Notes under the pieces: generated by a model
Seen by the model: the letters and a program-made list of their open reading frames with translations, nothing else
Database searches by the model: none
Told to the model about the DNA's origin: nothing
Shown here: piece after piece, positions 4,245-52,991 of the stretch
Numbering within the stretch: the first letter of the stretch is position 1
Layout: each line of letters begins with the position of its first letter
Position numbers and translations under genes: made by a program
Assembly (NCBI GenBank): GCA_030832605.1
Contig: JAURIU010000002.1
Span: forward strand, 1 to 64,000
Source of the DNA: Rhodoluna sp.
Lineage (GTDB): Bacteria; Actinomycetota; Actinomycetes; Actinomycetales; Microbacteriaceae
Reading direction: 5' to 3'
Length of the DNA: 64,000 nucleotides

Positions 4245-6482
4245 ATGGTGGAGAAAAAAACTTACCTAGACGCAACTAACGCGCCTGAATCCAAACCGAC
4301 TCGCTCACGCGCGAAGGCTACCGACAAGTCGGAGGCTCCTGCGCCAGCAGCTAAGCCTGCGTCTAAAACTTCGGCTAAACCCGAAGCCAAGAAGGCTCCG
4401 GCGCGAGCCGCTAAGTCCAAGAGCGAAAGTGCTGCGGCAGATACCACTGCTCCGGCCGAGTCAAATGACGCACCAAAGAAGTCTTCGGGTCGCTCACGCT
4501 CAAAGGCCAAAGCCACCGAGCCTTCGGTTGCCCCGCCGGTCGTGTCAGCGACATCCCTGCTCTTTCAAGCGCCAGATTTGCCAACCCCGGTCGTTGACCC
4601 GAAGCGTGGCAAAATCGTGGATGCTCCGTCCGATGGCGAGAGTCACCTTCGACGACGCAGCCGCCGTCGCGCCGGTGAAGAAGCCAACCTTGGCGATCTT
4701 CCAGAGAACGTAGTGGTGAAGGTTCGCACCCCGCGCGAACCGAAAGCTCCTAGTAACGAGCCACAGCGCGTAAAGGGCTCGACTCGTCTCGAAGCTAAGA
4801 AGCAGCGCCGCCGTGATGGCCGCGATGCAGGTCGCCGCCGCACTGTAATCACAGAGTCTGAATTCCTAGCCCGTCGCGAAGCAGTAGACCGCACCATGGT
4901 CGTGCGCTCTAAAGAGGGCAAGATTCAAATCGGTGTTCTCGAAGACAAGGTTTTGGTTGAGCACTACGTCGCTAAGGCGTCCGAGGCTTCACTGATTGGC
5001 AACGTTTATCTGGGCAAGGTGCAAAACGTACTTCCGAGCATGGAGGCAGCGTTCGTTGACATCGGCCGTGGCCGCAATGCCGTGCTCTACTCTGGCGAAG
5101 TTGACTGGGAGCTTGCCGAAACGGGCAACCAGCCCAAGCGCATCGAACTTGCTCTCAAATCTGGCGACACCGTTTTGGTGCAGGTCACCAAAGACCCAGT
5201 CGGCCAAAAGGGTGCTCGTCTAACTTCGCAGGTTTCGCTACCAGGTCGCTACTTGGTCTATGTGCCGAATGGCTCGATGAACGGAATCTCGCGCAAGCTT
5301 CCCGAAAGCGAACGCACTCGTCTCAAGAAGATTCTGAAAGAAGTCTTACCTGAAGACGCCGGTGTGATTGTTCGCACAGCATCCGAGGGCGCTACTGAAG
5401 AACAGTTGACCCTAGATGTTGCACGTTTGCAGAAGCAGTGGGAAGACCTGCAGGCTAAGGTTCAGAATTCACAAGCTCCGGTTTTGCTTCACAGCGAACC
5501 AGACCTGCTGATCAAAATCGTGCGCGATGTGTTCAACGAAGATTTCCAGAAAATGGTTATCTCCGGAGAAGACGCATCAGAGACCATCGAGGGTTACCTC
5601 GCCTCTGTTGCCCCAGATTTGCTGGAGCGCGTTGAGAAATACACAGGCAGCAAAGATGTATTCGACGAATTCCGCATCGGCGAACAAATTGCCAAGGCTC
5701 TAGATCGCAAGGTGTTCTTGCCTTCGGGTGGTTCGCTGGTAATCGACCGAACCGAAGCCATGACCGTGGTTGATGTGAACACCGGAAAGTTTGTTGGTTC
5801 GGGTGGAAACCTCGAAGAGACCGTCACCAAGAACAACCTCGAGGCAGCCGAAGAAATCGTTCGCCAGTTGCGTTTGCGTGACATCGGCGGAATCATCGTG
5901 GTTGACTTCATCGACATGGTGCTCGAATCAAACCGTGACCTAGTGCTTCGCCGTCTGATGGAATGCCTCTCGCGCGACCGCACCAAGCACCAGGTCGCCG
6001 AAGTTACCTCACTGGGTCTAGTTCAGATGACTCGAAAGAAGCTCGGTTTAGGACTACTCGAAACGTTCAGCGAAAATTGTGAAGTTTGCGCTGGCCGCGG
6101 CATCATCGTGAACAACGAACCACACATGCGAGCCAAGTCGTCGCACGAACAGCACTCACAGCCGAAGTCTGAAAACACGATCAGGCGCGGAAAGAACCAG
6201 AAGAAGCCTGAAGTGGCCAAGGTGGTAACACCTGAGCGTGCAATGGAAATCAATAACGTGGTCGCCCAGATCGCCGCATCCACTTTGAATAATCAAGACA
6301 ATGCGTCAGAAAAAGCTTCTGTATCGGCAGCCAAAGCTGCTGAAAACTCATCCGAGACCGTTCTAGATTCGGTTTTAGGTGCGCTTCCGGAGCCGGCAGC
6401 ACCGGGTCAGGGTCGCAAAAAGTCTCGACGGGTAACCACCGAGATGCTGAGCGGCGAAAATTCATCAGAAAACGCAGGCTAA
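4245..6482 (+). CDS. rne: ribonuclease E/G family endoribonuclease
   Basis: S1-like domain (GNVYLGKVQNVLPSMEAAFVDIG), catalytic GGIIVVDFIDM, Zn-link CEVCAGRG; disordered Ala/Lys-rich N-terminal extension. Confidence 0.95.
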   Translation: MVEKKTYLDATNAPESKPTRSRAKATDKSEAPAPAAKPASKTSAKPEAKKAPARAAKSKSESAAADTTAPAESNDAPKKSSGRSRSKAKATEPSVAPPVVSATSLLFQAPDLPTPVVDPKRGKIVDAPSDGESHLRRRSRRRAGEEANLGDLPENVVVKVRTPREPKAPSNEPQRVKGSTRLEAKKQRRRDGRDAGRRRTVITESEFLARREAVDRTMVVRSKEGKIQIGVLEDKVLVEHYVAKASEASLIGNVYLGKVQNVLPSMEAAFVDIGRGRNAVLYSGEVDWELAETGNQPKRIELALKSGDTVLVQVTKDPVGQKGARLTSQVSLPGRYLVYVPNGSMNGISRKLPESERTRLKKILKEVLPEDAGVIVRTASEGATEEQLTLDVARLQKQWEDLQAKVQNSQAPVLLHSEPDLLIKIVRDVFNEDFQKMVISGEDASETIEGYLASVAPDLLERVEKYTGSKDVFDEFRIGEQIAKALDRKVFLPSGGSLVIDRTEAMTVVDVNTGKFVGSGGNLEETVTKNNLEAAEEIVRQLRLRDIGGIIVVDFIDMVLESNRDLVLRRLMECLSRDRTKHQVAEVTSLGLVQMTRKKLGLGLLETFSENCEVCAGRGIIVNNEPHMRAKSSHEQHSQPKSENTIRRGKNQKKPEVAKVVTPERAMEINNVVAQIAASTLNNQDNASEKASVSAAKAAENSSETVLDSVLGALPEPAAPGQGRKKSRRVTTEMLSGENSSENAG

Positions 6483-49395: not shown

Positions 49396-49471
49396 TCCTC
49401 GGTAGCTCAATTGGCAGAGCAATCGGCTGTTAACCGATAGGTTCTTGGTTCGAGTCCAAGCCGGGGAGCCA
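49396..49471 (+). tRNA. tRNA-Asn(GTT), CCA encoded
   Basis: TCCTCGG/CCGGGGA acceptor, CGGCTGTTAACCG anticodon arm, GGTTCGAGTCC T-arm, GCCA end. Confidence 0.95.
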
Positions 49472-49512
49472 GTTCTTTTCTAAACACCGCCAGCGGTTTT
49501 TCAGGAGGCCAC

Positions 49513-50775
49513 GTGATTAAGTGGTTTCTGCAGCGAGAATGGCTCTCGGTTTCAGTAGTCGGCACAGCCGCAATCATTGTTTTCGTATCAATCGACTTTC
49601 TCTTTCAAGGCCCCTTAGCAATCGGTCCGGCCGCTCTAATCGCCTCCAGCCTCTTTTTCAGCAGACGTTGGCCCTATGTCGGCACGGCATTGGTCGCAGC
49701 AGGCACAATCTGGCAGCTAAACAGCGTGGCTGCTCCTCTCGTGTCTGGTGCTGCGAGTGCGCTTTCTCTTCTACTGGTCGCGGCCTTTGCAAGCTCTTTC
49801 TGGCGTCAGGTTGCCGTAATCGTCACCAACATCCTCGGAATTCTGGTGGTTTGGCAGTCAACCTTTGGCGCTAGCCCCGTGCTGCGTGAGTTTGGCATCT
49901 CGCTGACCGGCGAGAACGCGACATGGCTTACCTTTTTGCTTGGCTCGACTGCCGTTGTGTCGGTGAACAGCCTCAGCTGGATTCTCGGTCGCTTTCTCAT
50001 CACGAGAGACACATACGTTGGTACGCCGCTAGACCGCGCCGTCATCACTCACACCCAGGCCAAACTTTCGCTCGACGTAGCCACCGCCAAGGAGCGGCTA
50101 TCGATAGTCAGCGATTTGACCGACCTACTCATTCAGCGAATCTCAGCGGTGGTTAGCTTGGCAGAGGGTGCAAAGTTTGCCTCAAAGCGAGACCCAGAGT
50201 CGGCAATTCGCTCGCTTGATCGTATCGAATCATCGGCGCAATCAGCTCAGAGCGAGCTACGCAAACTCTACGACCTGCTACAAAAAGGCGCAGATCTTTC
50301 GGCCGCGCCGCCGAACATTGAAGACCTTGGACTACTCATGGTCCTAATGCGCGAATTGGGCTACAACGCCAAGATAAGCGTCGACGGAGAGCCCTTTGCC
50401 ATAAATGAGGGTGCTCAGCTATGCGTTTACCGAATCGTGTTTGAGGCGCTCGAAAATGTAAAGAAAAATTCGGTAATCGGTGCAGATGTCACAGTTGACT
50501 TCTACTGGACCGCCGAAGGGCTTCAGGTTCTGGTTAAGGACAATGGCATTGAGGCTGCCCGCCGAACCAAAACCTCAACGGTAGAAGATTTGGCGAGCTA
50601 CACGGTCGAAGACGACGTGGATGCACTGGTCAAGCCAATCACCGGTGCGACGTTGAACGCGATCAAGGAACGCGCATCTCTCTATGAGGGCAACATCGAA
50701 GTAACCAAGGTGCCAGGTGTCGGTTTCACTCTGAGCGCGATGTTCCCACACTTGAAAGCCGTCGCTGGTGAATAA
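49513..50775 (+). CDS. membrane sensor histidine-kinase-like protein with degenerate DHp/ATPase motifs
   Basis: Several N-terminal TM helices; HisKA_3-like segment KERLSIVSDLTDLLIQRISAVV; HATPase-like YRIVFEALENV and VKDNG. Confidence 0.75.
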   Translation: MIKWFLQREWLSVSVVGTAAIIVFVSIDFLFQGPLAIGPAALIASSLFFSRRWPYVGTALVAAGTIWQLNSVAAPLVSGAASALSLLLVAAFASSFWRQVAVIVTNILGILVVWQSTFGASPVLREFGISLTGENATWLTFLLGSTAVVSVNSLSWILGRFLITRDTYVGTPLDRAVITHTQAKLSLDVATAKERLSIVSDLTDLLIQRISAVVSLAEGAKFASKRDPESAIRSLDRIESSAQSAQSELRKLYDLLQKGADLSAAPPNIEDLGLLMVLMRELGYNAKISVDGEPFAINEGAQLCVYRIVFEALENVKKNSVIGADVTVDFYWTAEGLQVLVKDNGIEAARRTKTSTVEDLASYTVEDDVDALVKPITGATLNAIKERASLYEGNIEVTKVPGVGFTLSAMFPHLKAVAGE

Positions 50776-51445
50776 CACCATCCGCGTAGGCGTTGTCAAC
50801 GCCGACGCAGACATCACCGCTGGTCGAAAGCTGGTTCTAGAGTCGACCGGCCGCATAACCCTCGTTCTCGACGAACAAAAACCCGAAGACCTACTCGATA
50901 AATTCGAAAACTATTTGATCGACGTTCTCTTGGTAGATCAGCGTTTGCGCGGAATGTCTGGAGTTGAACTTTGCGAAAGATTGACCAAGATCAAAATCGA
51001 GCAAGGAGTCGAGACTCGCCTTTTGGTGACCGCCGCGTTCGGGTCTCCGAGGCTGACCTTTGACGCACTTGTAGCCGGAGCGAATGCCGTTGTGACCCAA
51101 GACCAAGGACCTAAGGCGCTAATCGAGACTCTTGTCTCGTTGAATTCTCGCAAGCAACAGCAGAACTTTGAAGAGTTGAAAAAACTCGTGTCTAATTTAG
51201 ACATCGACGCGAAAGAAGACCCTGTGGTTCAAGTGCTGCTCGAGTCATTCGATGAATTCGAAAAGAAACTCTTTGCAGAGATCGTTTCGGGCAATTCGAT
51301 CGCCTCGGTCTCGGCAGCAAATGAAGTCGCCGGCTACCGAATCAGAAAAATCATGCAGCGCGCGATGGATCAACTCAAGTTAGCCACTCTGGAGCAACTT
51401 CAGTTGAGGTTGATTCAATCGGGAGAAGACCTTGGCAAAAACTAA
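50768..51445 (+). CDS. response-regulator-like protein (atypical receiver)
   Basis: IRVGVVNADADITAGRKLVL, phospho-acceptor-like LLVDQRLRGMSGVEL, LLVTAAFG; degenerate C-terminal HTH. GTG start overlaps kinase stop. Confidence 0.8.
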   Translation: MNNTIRVGVVNADADITAGRKLVLESTGRITLVLDEQKPEDLLDKFENYLIDVLLVDQRLRGMSGVELCERLTKIKIEQGVETRLLVTAAFGSPRLTFDALVAGANAVVTQDQGPKALIETLVSLNSRKQQQNFEELKKLVSNLDIDAKEDPVVQVLLESFDEFEKKLFAEIVSGNSIASVSAANEVAGYRIRKIMQRAMDQLKLATLEQLQLRLIQSGEDLGKN

Positions 51446-52118
51446 CTCTCTGTTGGTGACATCAGTCTCGGTCGGTCTAGCCACGGGTCTTTATGGCATC
51501 TCTTTCGGCGCGCTGTCGGTTGCGGCGGGCTTGGATGTCTGGCAAACCTGTGTTCTGAGTCTCTTGATGTTCAGCGGCGGCTCCCAGTTCGCCTTCGTTG
51601 GAGTCATAGCCGGTGGCGGCGTGGCGGCAATACCAGCGGCCATAGCCAGCGCTTGGATGATGGGTGTTCGCAACGGTTTTTACGCTGTGGCAATGGCACC
51701 AATTTTGCAGTTGCGAAAGCTGCAACGCGTCGCAGGCGCACAACTCACCATTGATGAATCAACGGGTGTGGCGCTAAGCCAAGCCGACACGGCTAAACAG
51801 AAGTTTGGCTTTTGGGCAACCGGAATCTCGGTTTTTGTCTTCTGGAATCTGCTGACCCTGCTTGGCGCTTTGCTGGGCGAACTGATGTCAGACCCTGCGG
51901 TCTGGGGGCTCGATGCCGCTGCTGCAGCCGCGTTCGTCGCGCTCGTCTGGCCTCGGTTGACTGATTCACCGATTCGGGTGGTGGCGATCTTGGCCTTCGC
52001 CGTAGCTATCTTGAGTAGCCCTTATGTGCCGCAAGGCATTCCAGTGCTATTGGCCGGCTTGGTTGCTGTGGCTGTTTGGGCGGCCGTTGGTTTGCGAAAT
52101 CCGGAGAGTGAATGCTAA
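51432..52118 (+). CDS. azlC: AzlC family branched-chain amino acid transporter subunit
   Basis: GLYGISFGALSVAAGLDVWQTCVLSLLMFSGGSQFAFVG; TTG start overlapping upstream gene. Confidence 0.95.
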   Translation: MAKTNSLLVTSVSVGLATGLYGISFGALSVAAGLDVWQTCVLSLLMFSGGSQFAFVGVIAGGGVAAIPAAIASAWMMGVRNGFYAVAMAPILQLRKLQRVAGAQLTIDESTGVALSQADTAKQKFGFWATGISVFVFWNLLTLLGALLGELMSDPAVWGLDAAAAAAFVALVWPRLTDSPIRVVAILAFAVAILSSPYVPQGIPVLLAGLVAVAVWAAVGLRNPESEC

Positions 52119-52423
52119 TGGAGCTCTGGATTGCGGTAGTTGTTGCCTCGCTGTCCGTCTACTCATGGAAAATACTCGGATCAACCCTGCCCGAGCGTGT
52201 TCTGAATCATCCGAAAGTTAGCCGGCTAGCAACGTTTTTGACAGTGGCACTAATGGCCGGTCTGGTTGGCGTTCAAGGGTTTGTCGATAATCGAGAAATC
52301 ACTCTGGATGCGCGGCTACCAGCGCTACTTATCGCTGTTGTTTTGGCAATCCTGCGCGTGCCGTTTATCTTGATTGTGATTGCCGCAGCTGCTACCGCCG
52401 CGGGAGTGCGCTTTTTCTTTTGA
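52112..52423 (+). CDS. azlD: AzlD family transporter subunit
   Basis: Small multi-TM protein following azlC; LDARLPALLIAVVLAILRVPFILIVIAAAATAAGVR. Confidence 0.92.
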   Translation: MLMELWIAVVVASLSVYSWKILGSTLPERVLNHPKVSRLATFLTVALMAGLVGVQGFVDNREITLDARLPALLIAVVLAILRVPFILIVIAAAATAAGVRFFF

Positions 52424-52424
52424 T

Positions 52425-52991
52425 CTAGTCTTCTAGGTGATCTTTACCGGGAAGCCAGGTGAGTCCATCCTCGCCCCATCCGTTTTCGTTGATGATTTCT
52501 TTGGCATCAGAGAAGTGTGGTTCGGCAAGCCTGTCAACATATAAAGTGCCGTCGAGGTGGTCGTATTCGTGTTGAAAGATGCGAGCAAACCATCCGGATG
52601 CTTCAATCGACACGGGGTTCTGCTGCAAGTCAACGCCGGTCAGTCTGGCCCAATCGGCGCGTTTGAGTGGAAACCTTTCGCCAGGTACCGAAAGACAGCC
52701 TTCAAGTTCGGTATCCCAATCCGCTTGACCCGACTCAATCTCTCCGATTTCAAGCGACGGGTTGATCACAACGCCGCGCCGAGGGTTGCCCTCGTCGTCG
52801 TCATAGTCATATACGAACACTCGCAGGCCGATACCCACCTGGGTCGCCGCCAAGCCAACACCAGGCGCTTTATCCATGGTGTCGAACATGTCTTCAACCA
52901 GCGTTTTCAATTCGTTGTCAAAAACAACAACCTCGCGGGCACGATTGTGAAGAACTGGATTTCCAGTGATACAGATTGGTCGTATAGCCAT
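52425..52991 (-). CDS. def: peptide deformylase
   Basis: GVGLAATQVGI; EGCLSVPG; QHEYDHLDG. Confidence 0.98.
   Translation of the reverse strand: MAIRPICITGNPVLHNRAREVVVFDNELKTLVEDMFDTMDKAPGVGLAATQVGIGLRVFVYDYDDDEGNPRRGVVINPSLEIGEIESGQADWDTELEGCLSVPGERFPLKRADWARLTGVDLQQNPVSIEASGWFARIFQHEYDHLDGTLYVDRLAEPHFSDAKEIINENGWGEDGLTWLPGKDHLED

Follow-up and report, generated by a model that had tools for sequence, protein, structure and literature searches.

A conserved pseudo-histidine kinase and its pseudo-receiver partner downstream of tRNA-Asn in Rhodoluna

The DesK-DesR system of Bacillus subtilis, in which a HisKA_3 histidine kinase is paired with a NarL-type response regulator, provides the best Protein Data Bank matches for both partners of a gene pair in a freshwater Rhodoluna (Microbacteriaceae) that we describe here. 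The pair lies in the first 64,000 nucleotides (nt) of contig JAURIU010000002.1 (Rhodoluna sp., assembly GCA_030832605.1, forward strand), hereafter the window, where four overlapping genes at positions 49513–52423 encode a membrane histidine-kinase homolog of 420 amino acids (aa), a NarL-type regulator of 225 aa, and AzlC and AzlD. An initial annotation of this DNA had noted that the four frames overlap, as they do (successively by 8, 14 and 7 nt), and had taken the kinase and regulator for a non-canonical signalling module that is maintained and linked to the export of branched-chain amino acids. The Rhodoluna kinase resembles DesK in that its dimerisation and histidine phosphotransfer (DHp) domain aligns without a gap through the acceptor position and in that it keeps the acidic residue at +1 and the Gln at +5. 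Unlike DesK-DesR, the pair is without the acceptor His, the receiver Lys and the receiver acidic pair, the G1 box has another residue in place of its second Gly, and the lid of the ATP-binding domain carries an insert.

Pseudo-histidine kinases and pseudo-receivers are already known, each separately. In the broad sense, the former are histidine-kinase homologs that lack one or more histidine-kinase functions and have been retained, a description that fits the Rhodoluna protein, whose acceptor is missing and whose gene is under selection. DivL of Caulobacter has a different architecture and carries Tyr at the acceptor position. It offers a parallel as a kinase-like protein repurposed for protein contacts rather than kinase action (PMC4211667). 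DivL, however, controls another kinase, whereas nine Rhodoluna genomes contain no other HisKA_3 kinase, and the regulator next to the pseudo-kinase has degenerated as well. A variant of ChrS in Corynebacterium glutamicum is likewise an actinobacterial membrane histidine kinase that became a pseudo-kinase, with altered exporter expression (PMC9491836), but it arose in laboratory evolution by a frameshift in the catalytic and ATP-binding (CA) domain; the Rhodoluna case is natural, with family-wide loss of the acceptor and with CA motifs kept. Acceptor loss is otherwise rare, the His being missing in 56 of 16,025 HisKA_3 domains (0.3%) in a published survey, which also describes pseudo-receivers as lacking key residues and calls the way in which they are switched a mystery (PMC12632262). 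BldM and WhiI of Streptomyces are described as orphan, atypical regulators (PMC4125116), whereas the Rhodoluna regulator is not an orphan and has a conserved, adjacent pseudo-kinase.

The nearest outgroup consists of DUF7134-HisKA_3 kinases with NarL regulators from other families of the order (L238–L244), which share an alignable membrane part, the adjacency of kinase and regulator and a well-matched regulator. They differ in having the acceptor His, a DDGRG motif and a short lid, and their regulators score as ordinary proteins with a receiver and a helix-turn-helix (HTH) domain. A literature search judged by title or abstract found no AzlC-linked histidine kinase, and the passages searched in papers on Rhodoluna/Luna-1 and Pontimonas make no mention of such a pair. 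The orthogroup described below offers many independent losses of the His, and one and the same locus holds orthologs with the His and orthologs without it. Rhodoluna adds a single genus whose kinase and regulator have both degenerated, yet are strongly selected. Together they constitute a natural experiment on the roles of histidine kinases beyond phosphotransfer, much of it testable with purified proteins.

Residues lost and retained in kinase and regulator

The window kinase matches HisKA_3 (PF07730) over residues 194–259 with 34.3 bits, against a cut-off of 24, and in the alignment of the profile to the DesK DHp domain T203 sits on the phospho-acceptor His of DesK, bearing out the Thr that had been read at this position. 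Among 55 distinct Rhodoluna orthologs in which the site is covered, the acceptor column holds Asn (25), Ser (17), Thr (12) and Ala (1), and His in none. The 77 sequences from other Microbacteriaceae have His in 35 cases (one of which, L144, was later judged a canonical kinase and left out of the trees), Gln in 29, Gly in seven, and Leu, Asp and Asn in two each. The initial annotation had named two kinds of alignment result that would speak against it. One, a conserved His elsewhere in the DHp helix, was looked for and is absent: there is no replacement His in the domain and no conserved His column among the orthologs, and the window kinase has two His overall. The other, orthologs with canonical His or Lys, does not occur within Rhodoluna, but many orthologs from other genera retain the His. 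Phosphotransfer via the usual His is impossible in the Rhodoluna kinases, in which the [D/E]xxxQ phosphatase motif is largely retained (the +1 acid in 54/55 and the +5 Gln in 44/55).

The ATP site has fared differently from the acceptor. The N-box Asn, D343, G345, G378, G402 and G404 are near-invariant across the orthogroup, and the N-box Asn and DNG motif recognised earlier (Asn315, D343-N-G345) are indeed in place. The view that the second and third glycine boxes are lacking needs correction in one half, since the second is degenerate in the window (GATLN) but the third is present, with G402 and G404 (PGVGF) invariant in orthologs; G2 itself reads GxG in 33 of the 55 Rhodoluna sequences and in 74 of the 77 others. 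The second Gly of G1 is replaced in every member of the orthogroup, by Glu in Rhodoluna (DNGIE) and mostly by Arg in the other genera; it is present in the closest canonical kinases from other families (DDGRG). This loss was not used as proof of inactivity, because canonical kinases encoded upstream in other genera vary there too. Between G1 and G2 the lid contains an insert, conserved and some 25 residues long, in which Y363, D368 and L372 are near-invariant. An AlphaFold model of the kinase (predicted local distance difference test, pLDDT, 80; predicted template modelling score, pTM, 0.58) has a membrane part, a DHp hairpin and a HATPase fold, with DesK as the best solved match. Judged from the retained residues of the ATP site, the kinase would probably still bind nucleotide. 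In one Rhodoluna pseudo-kinase (L047:170-1423) both the N-box Asn and the Gly of G1 are gone as well (RYFALS, DNS), and because of these losses it may not bind ATP. The membrane part can be aligned with that of the canonical outgroup kinases, which carry DUF7134 there; the idea of a chimera, in which the membrane part would descend from the canonical kinase that lies upstream in other genera, was rejected on domain scores of −2 to 7 bits.

The regulator exceeds the Pfam cut-off for Response_reg. Its Asp57 and the Gln111 that stands in place of the conserved Lys are as previously reported, and the receiver acidic pair, a point overlooked in the initial annotation, is replaced by N11 and A12. 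Both the second acidic residue and the Lys are missing in all 54 Rhodoluna regulators. At position 57 the same 54 proteins have Asp (40), Glu (9), Gly (3), Ala (1) or Asn (1), and the Asp has been lost about nine times. The HTH, described as barely recognisable, gives a weak sequence signal but stands out clearly in an AlphaFold model (pLDDT 93.5), in which a receiver and a four-helix HTH match full-length DesR (4ldz), VraR (4gvp) and NarL (1a04) in Foldseek. Two further kinase-regulator pairs read in Rhodoluna genomes retain both the His and the Lys, so that the degeneration is, as far as checked, specific to the pair described here. In two related Rhodoluna species (L032 and L078) the regulator is shortened to 127 aa and its HTH part is lost. 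Some other genera have stand-alone receivers, with the canonical Asp and Lys, directly after the pseudo-kinase and ahead of azlC or def (L119:6365-6736, L124:5706-6089 and L133:5232-5606).

Orthology, repeated loss of the histidine and selection

Of 60 Rhodoluna genomes, 51 yielded an ortholog of the kinase and the other nine are fragmented; further orthologs were collected from many other genera of Microbacteriaceae; the gene was not found in some small-genome genera. Many of these genomes are metagenome-assembled genomes (MAGs), and loci were picked by score. In nearly all loci checked, the orthogroup occupies one fixed chromosomal site, between tRNA-Asn and, further on, tRNA-Met, and the order and tight spacing of kinase and regulator are conserved across loci.

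When canonical kinases, every one of which has the His, are used as the root, the tree supports both the orthogroup and Rhodoluna (100/99 each). On this tree the non-His state requires eight changes, six of which are forced by well-supported branches, and bootstrap replicates require 8–10; a larger, quick tree requires 10. A single non-His clade is rejected (approximately unbiased test, p-AU 1.8e-5). By this reconstruction there were at least 6–10 independent losses of the acceptor His.

Purifying selection was evident in both genes when the ratio of nonsynonymous to synonymous substitution rates (dN/dS) was calculated by a simple method (Nei-Gojobori). Between the window and its nearest distinct relative (94%), dN/dS is 0.027 for the kinase and 0.046 for the regulator, at high dS; the unsaturated pair L068/L070 gives 0.041 and 0.018 respectively. 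These values are far from 1, near which the initial annotation had said the ratio would contradict it. Its contention that the module is non-canonical and maintained rather than decaying is supported by them and by the His-less acceptor column of Rhodoluna.

Possible modes of action

Pseudo-kinases that work by docking or as heterodimers have been described (DivL, PMC4211667; the ChrS variant, PMC9491836). On balance we lean, with some reserve, towards a maintained pseudo-two-component system that would work by docking and conformation instead of phosphotransfer. The membrane protein would be a dimeric HisKA_3 pseudo-kinase that carries no phosphate on the usual His, and its partner a NarL-type regulator with a pseudo-receiver. 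Input through the membrane part, the nucleotide state or both would alter the conformation of the DHp domain, which would dock the regulator and thereby sequester it or activate it allosterically. Output would then be exerted on DNA by the HTH or, in the sub-lineage without an HTH, by protein contact. Transcription would probably start at tRNA-Asn, and azlCD would be an optional passenger, or a target where present.

Several observations weigh against such a phosphate-free system. The match of the window kinase to HATPase_c (PF02518), at 21 bits, is under the cut-off of 26.4. Asp57 is kept in most Rhodoluna regulators and DxxxQ in most of the kinases, and docking without phosphate needs neither; acetyl phosphate or other kinases could still phosphorylate Asp57. 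Furthermore, because a good quarter of the orthogroup retains the His, phosphotransfer may persist in some lineages. We advance only tentatively a wider reading, in which a family-wide orthogroup at the fixed tRNA-Asn site has a conserved job other than phosphotransfer, a task that it either never had or gave up long ago. Rhodoluna, where the partner regulator has lost its receiver chemistry too, would then have a complete two-component system that runs without phosphate and is expressed as part of a tRNA operon. The grounds for this reading are that the acceptor His has been dropped again and again, whereas the ATP site and the family-specific lid insert have stayed almost invariant.

In the main rival explanation the kinase is a sensor with phosphatase activity only. 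Its regulator would be charged by another kinase or by acetyl phosphate, and the signal would be set by dephosphorylation. Phosphatase activity in HisKA_3 proteins is independent of the His, DesK H188V retaining activity, and the Gln one turn past the His is catalytic (PMC5231405); this residue, the +1 acid and the regulator Asp57 are, as noted above, mostly retained in Rhodoluna. We nevertheless consider this explanation unlikely. The receiver is without the Lys and acidic pair needed for efficient phosphorylation, and when the +5 Gln and the regulator Asp were compared for coevolution, the Asp was lost while the +5 residue of the kinase was kept in six of six independent comparisons (the +5 Gln itself changed just once). 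Cryobacterium-type kinases that lack the His frequently carry Leu at +5 and lack an adjoining receiver gene, and a general phosphatase role for pseudo-histidine kinases is argued against in the published survey (PMC12632262).

In a reading along the lines of the initial annotation, the pair would be a sensor of branched-chain amino acids dedicated to regulating the AzlCD exporter, for which gene order speaks. Of 50 Rhodoluna loci, 29 have azlC after the pair, usually with an overlap of 4–14 nt, and in many other genera azlCD comes after the pseudo-kinase. However, in a genome-wide test set enriched for loci without an adjacent azlC, no azlC was found in 11 of 18 Rhodoluna genomes with the pseudo-kinase, two of them complete (G017 and G048), or in 6 of 20 non-Rhodoluna genomes that retain the pseudo-kinase. 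L068 and L070 come from these two complete genomes, and because the pair has a low dN/dS there, azlCD is not what keeps the module. The claimed tie to branched-chain amino acid export is therefore unsupported, and a dedicated role improbable: azlCD is not an obligate partner but a dispensable, optional neighbour, and the link to the exporter is occasional, although AzlCD may be one target in some species.

Alternatively, the pseudo-kinase could be an auxiliary subunit of another histidine kinase, by heterodimerisation or cross-talk, as the ChrS pseudo-kinase variant is with HrrS. In many other Microbacteriaceae a canonical kinase-regulator pair lies directly upstream. No such pair was present in the Rhodoluna loci inspected, and the pseudo-kinase is the sole HisKA_3 protein in nine of nine Rhodoluna genomes, including four single-contig ones, so that help from another HisKA_3 kinase is unlikely. 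Other Rhodoluna kinases with different DHp domains do exist, which leaves the auxiliary role weakened and, in our estimation, quite improbable.

A decaying, functionless gene pair might be suspected from the loss of several catalytic residues and from the failure to find the gene in some small-genome genera, but the frames are intact, the gene is widespread in Rhodoluna and ATP-site residues are near-invariant; decay is effectively excluded because dN/dS is low in both comparisons. Finally, a Ser/Thr autokinase, in which the HATPase domain phosphorylates a hydroxyl residue at the acceptor site, accords with the Thr or Ser found there in 29 of 55 Rhodoluna kinases but can be dismissed, since the Asn of 25 others and the Gln, Gly, Leu or Asp of other genera could not serve.

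Locus layout and neighbouring genes

The kinase starts 18–67 nt past tRNA-Asn in 48 of 50 Rhodoluna loci, with a Shine-Dalgarno-like site of AGGAGG type. In the window, the spacer between the two holds no terminator-like site and is too short for a typical promoter, on which grounds the kinase is likely to be co-transcribed with tRNA-Asn. The peptide deformylase gene def lies downstream in most loci inspected, whether azlCD is present or not, and in most loci read def and a transporter gene fall within the interval from tRNA-Asn to tRNA-Met. Coordinates are collected in Table 1.

Table 1. Features of the pseudo-kinase locus and its surroundings, in window positions
Feature	Position	Strand	Basis or remark
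tRNA-Asn(GTT)	49396..49471	+	ARAGORN; fixed upstream neighbour; 3' end 41 nt before kinase start
Spacer, 41 nt	49472..49512	+	Shine-Dalgarno-like AGGAGG; typical promoter would not fit; without terminator-like site
Pseudo-histidine kinase, 420 aa, GTG start	49513..50775	+	HisKA_3 34.3 bits; HATPase_c 21 bits, under its cut-off
Membrane part at the N-terminus (residues 1-167), about six helices	49513..50013	+	AlphaFold secondary structure; alignable with canonical outgroup kinases
DHp domain (HisKA_3)	50092..50289	+	Profile match, residues 194-259
Thr203, phospho-acceptor position	50119..50121	+	ACC; N/S/T/A in 55 Rhodoluna, H/Q/G/L/D/N elsewhere
Asp204...Gln208, HisKA_3 phosphatase motif DxxxQ, retained	50122..50136	+	Ortholog alignment; role of Gln from PMC5231405
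Asn315, N-box	50455..50457	+	54/55 Rhodoluna, 77/77 other sequences
G1 box D343-N-G345-I-E347, Glu replacing second Gly	50539..50553	+	Orthogroup against outgroup DDGRG
Lid insert, near-invariant Y363, D368, L372	50554..50643	+	Ortholog alignment
Degenerate G2 (G378ATLN) to invariant G3 (PG402VG404F)	50644..50724	+	Ortholog alignment
NarL-type response regulator, pseudo-receiver, 225 aa	50768..51445	+	Response_reg 35.7 bits; model pLDDT 93.5; Foldseek DesR/VraR/NarL
N11-A12 replacing receiver acidic pair	50798..50803	+	Second acid missing in 54/54 Rhodoluna regulators
Asp57, retained	50936..50938	+	GAT; D 40/54, E 9, other 5
Gln111 replacing conserved Lys	51098..51100	+	CAA; Lys in 0/54
LuxR/NarL-type HTH core helices, residues 163-173, 178-185, 189-202	51254..51373	+	AlphaFold model
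azlC, exporter subunit, optional neighbour	51432..52118	+	AzlC 92.5 bits
azlD, exporter subunit	52112..52423	+	AzlD 32.4 bits
Peptide deformylase gene (def), convergent	52425..52991	-	Sequence; fixed downstream neighbour

The complete Rhodoluna genomes G006, G017, G048 and G300 each contain six GerE/LuxR-type matches and a single HisKA_3 protein, the pseudo-kinase, and at least some of the other Rhodoluna NarL regulators adjoin kinases of other DHp types. Canonical kinases with NarL regulators are found between tRNA-Asn and the pseudo-kinase in L106–L112, L118, L121, L122, L133, L135, L137, L139 and L140, and lie on the opposite strand in L113 and L117. In one Rhodoluna MAG (L053, minus strand, 5506–6116) azlC extends over two frames, reflecting either a real frameshift or an assembly error.

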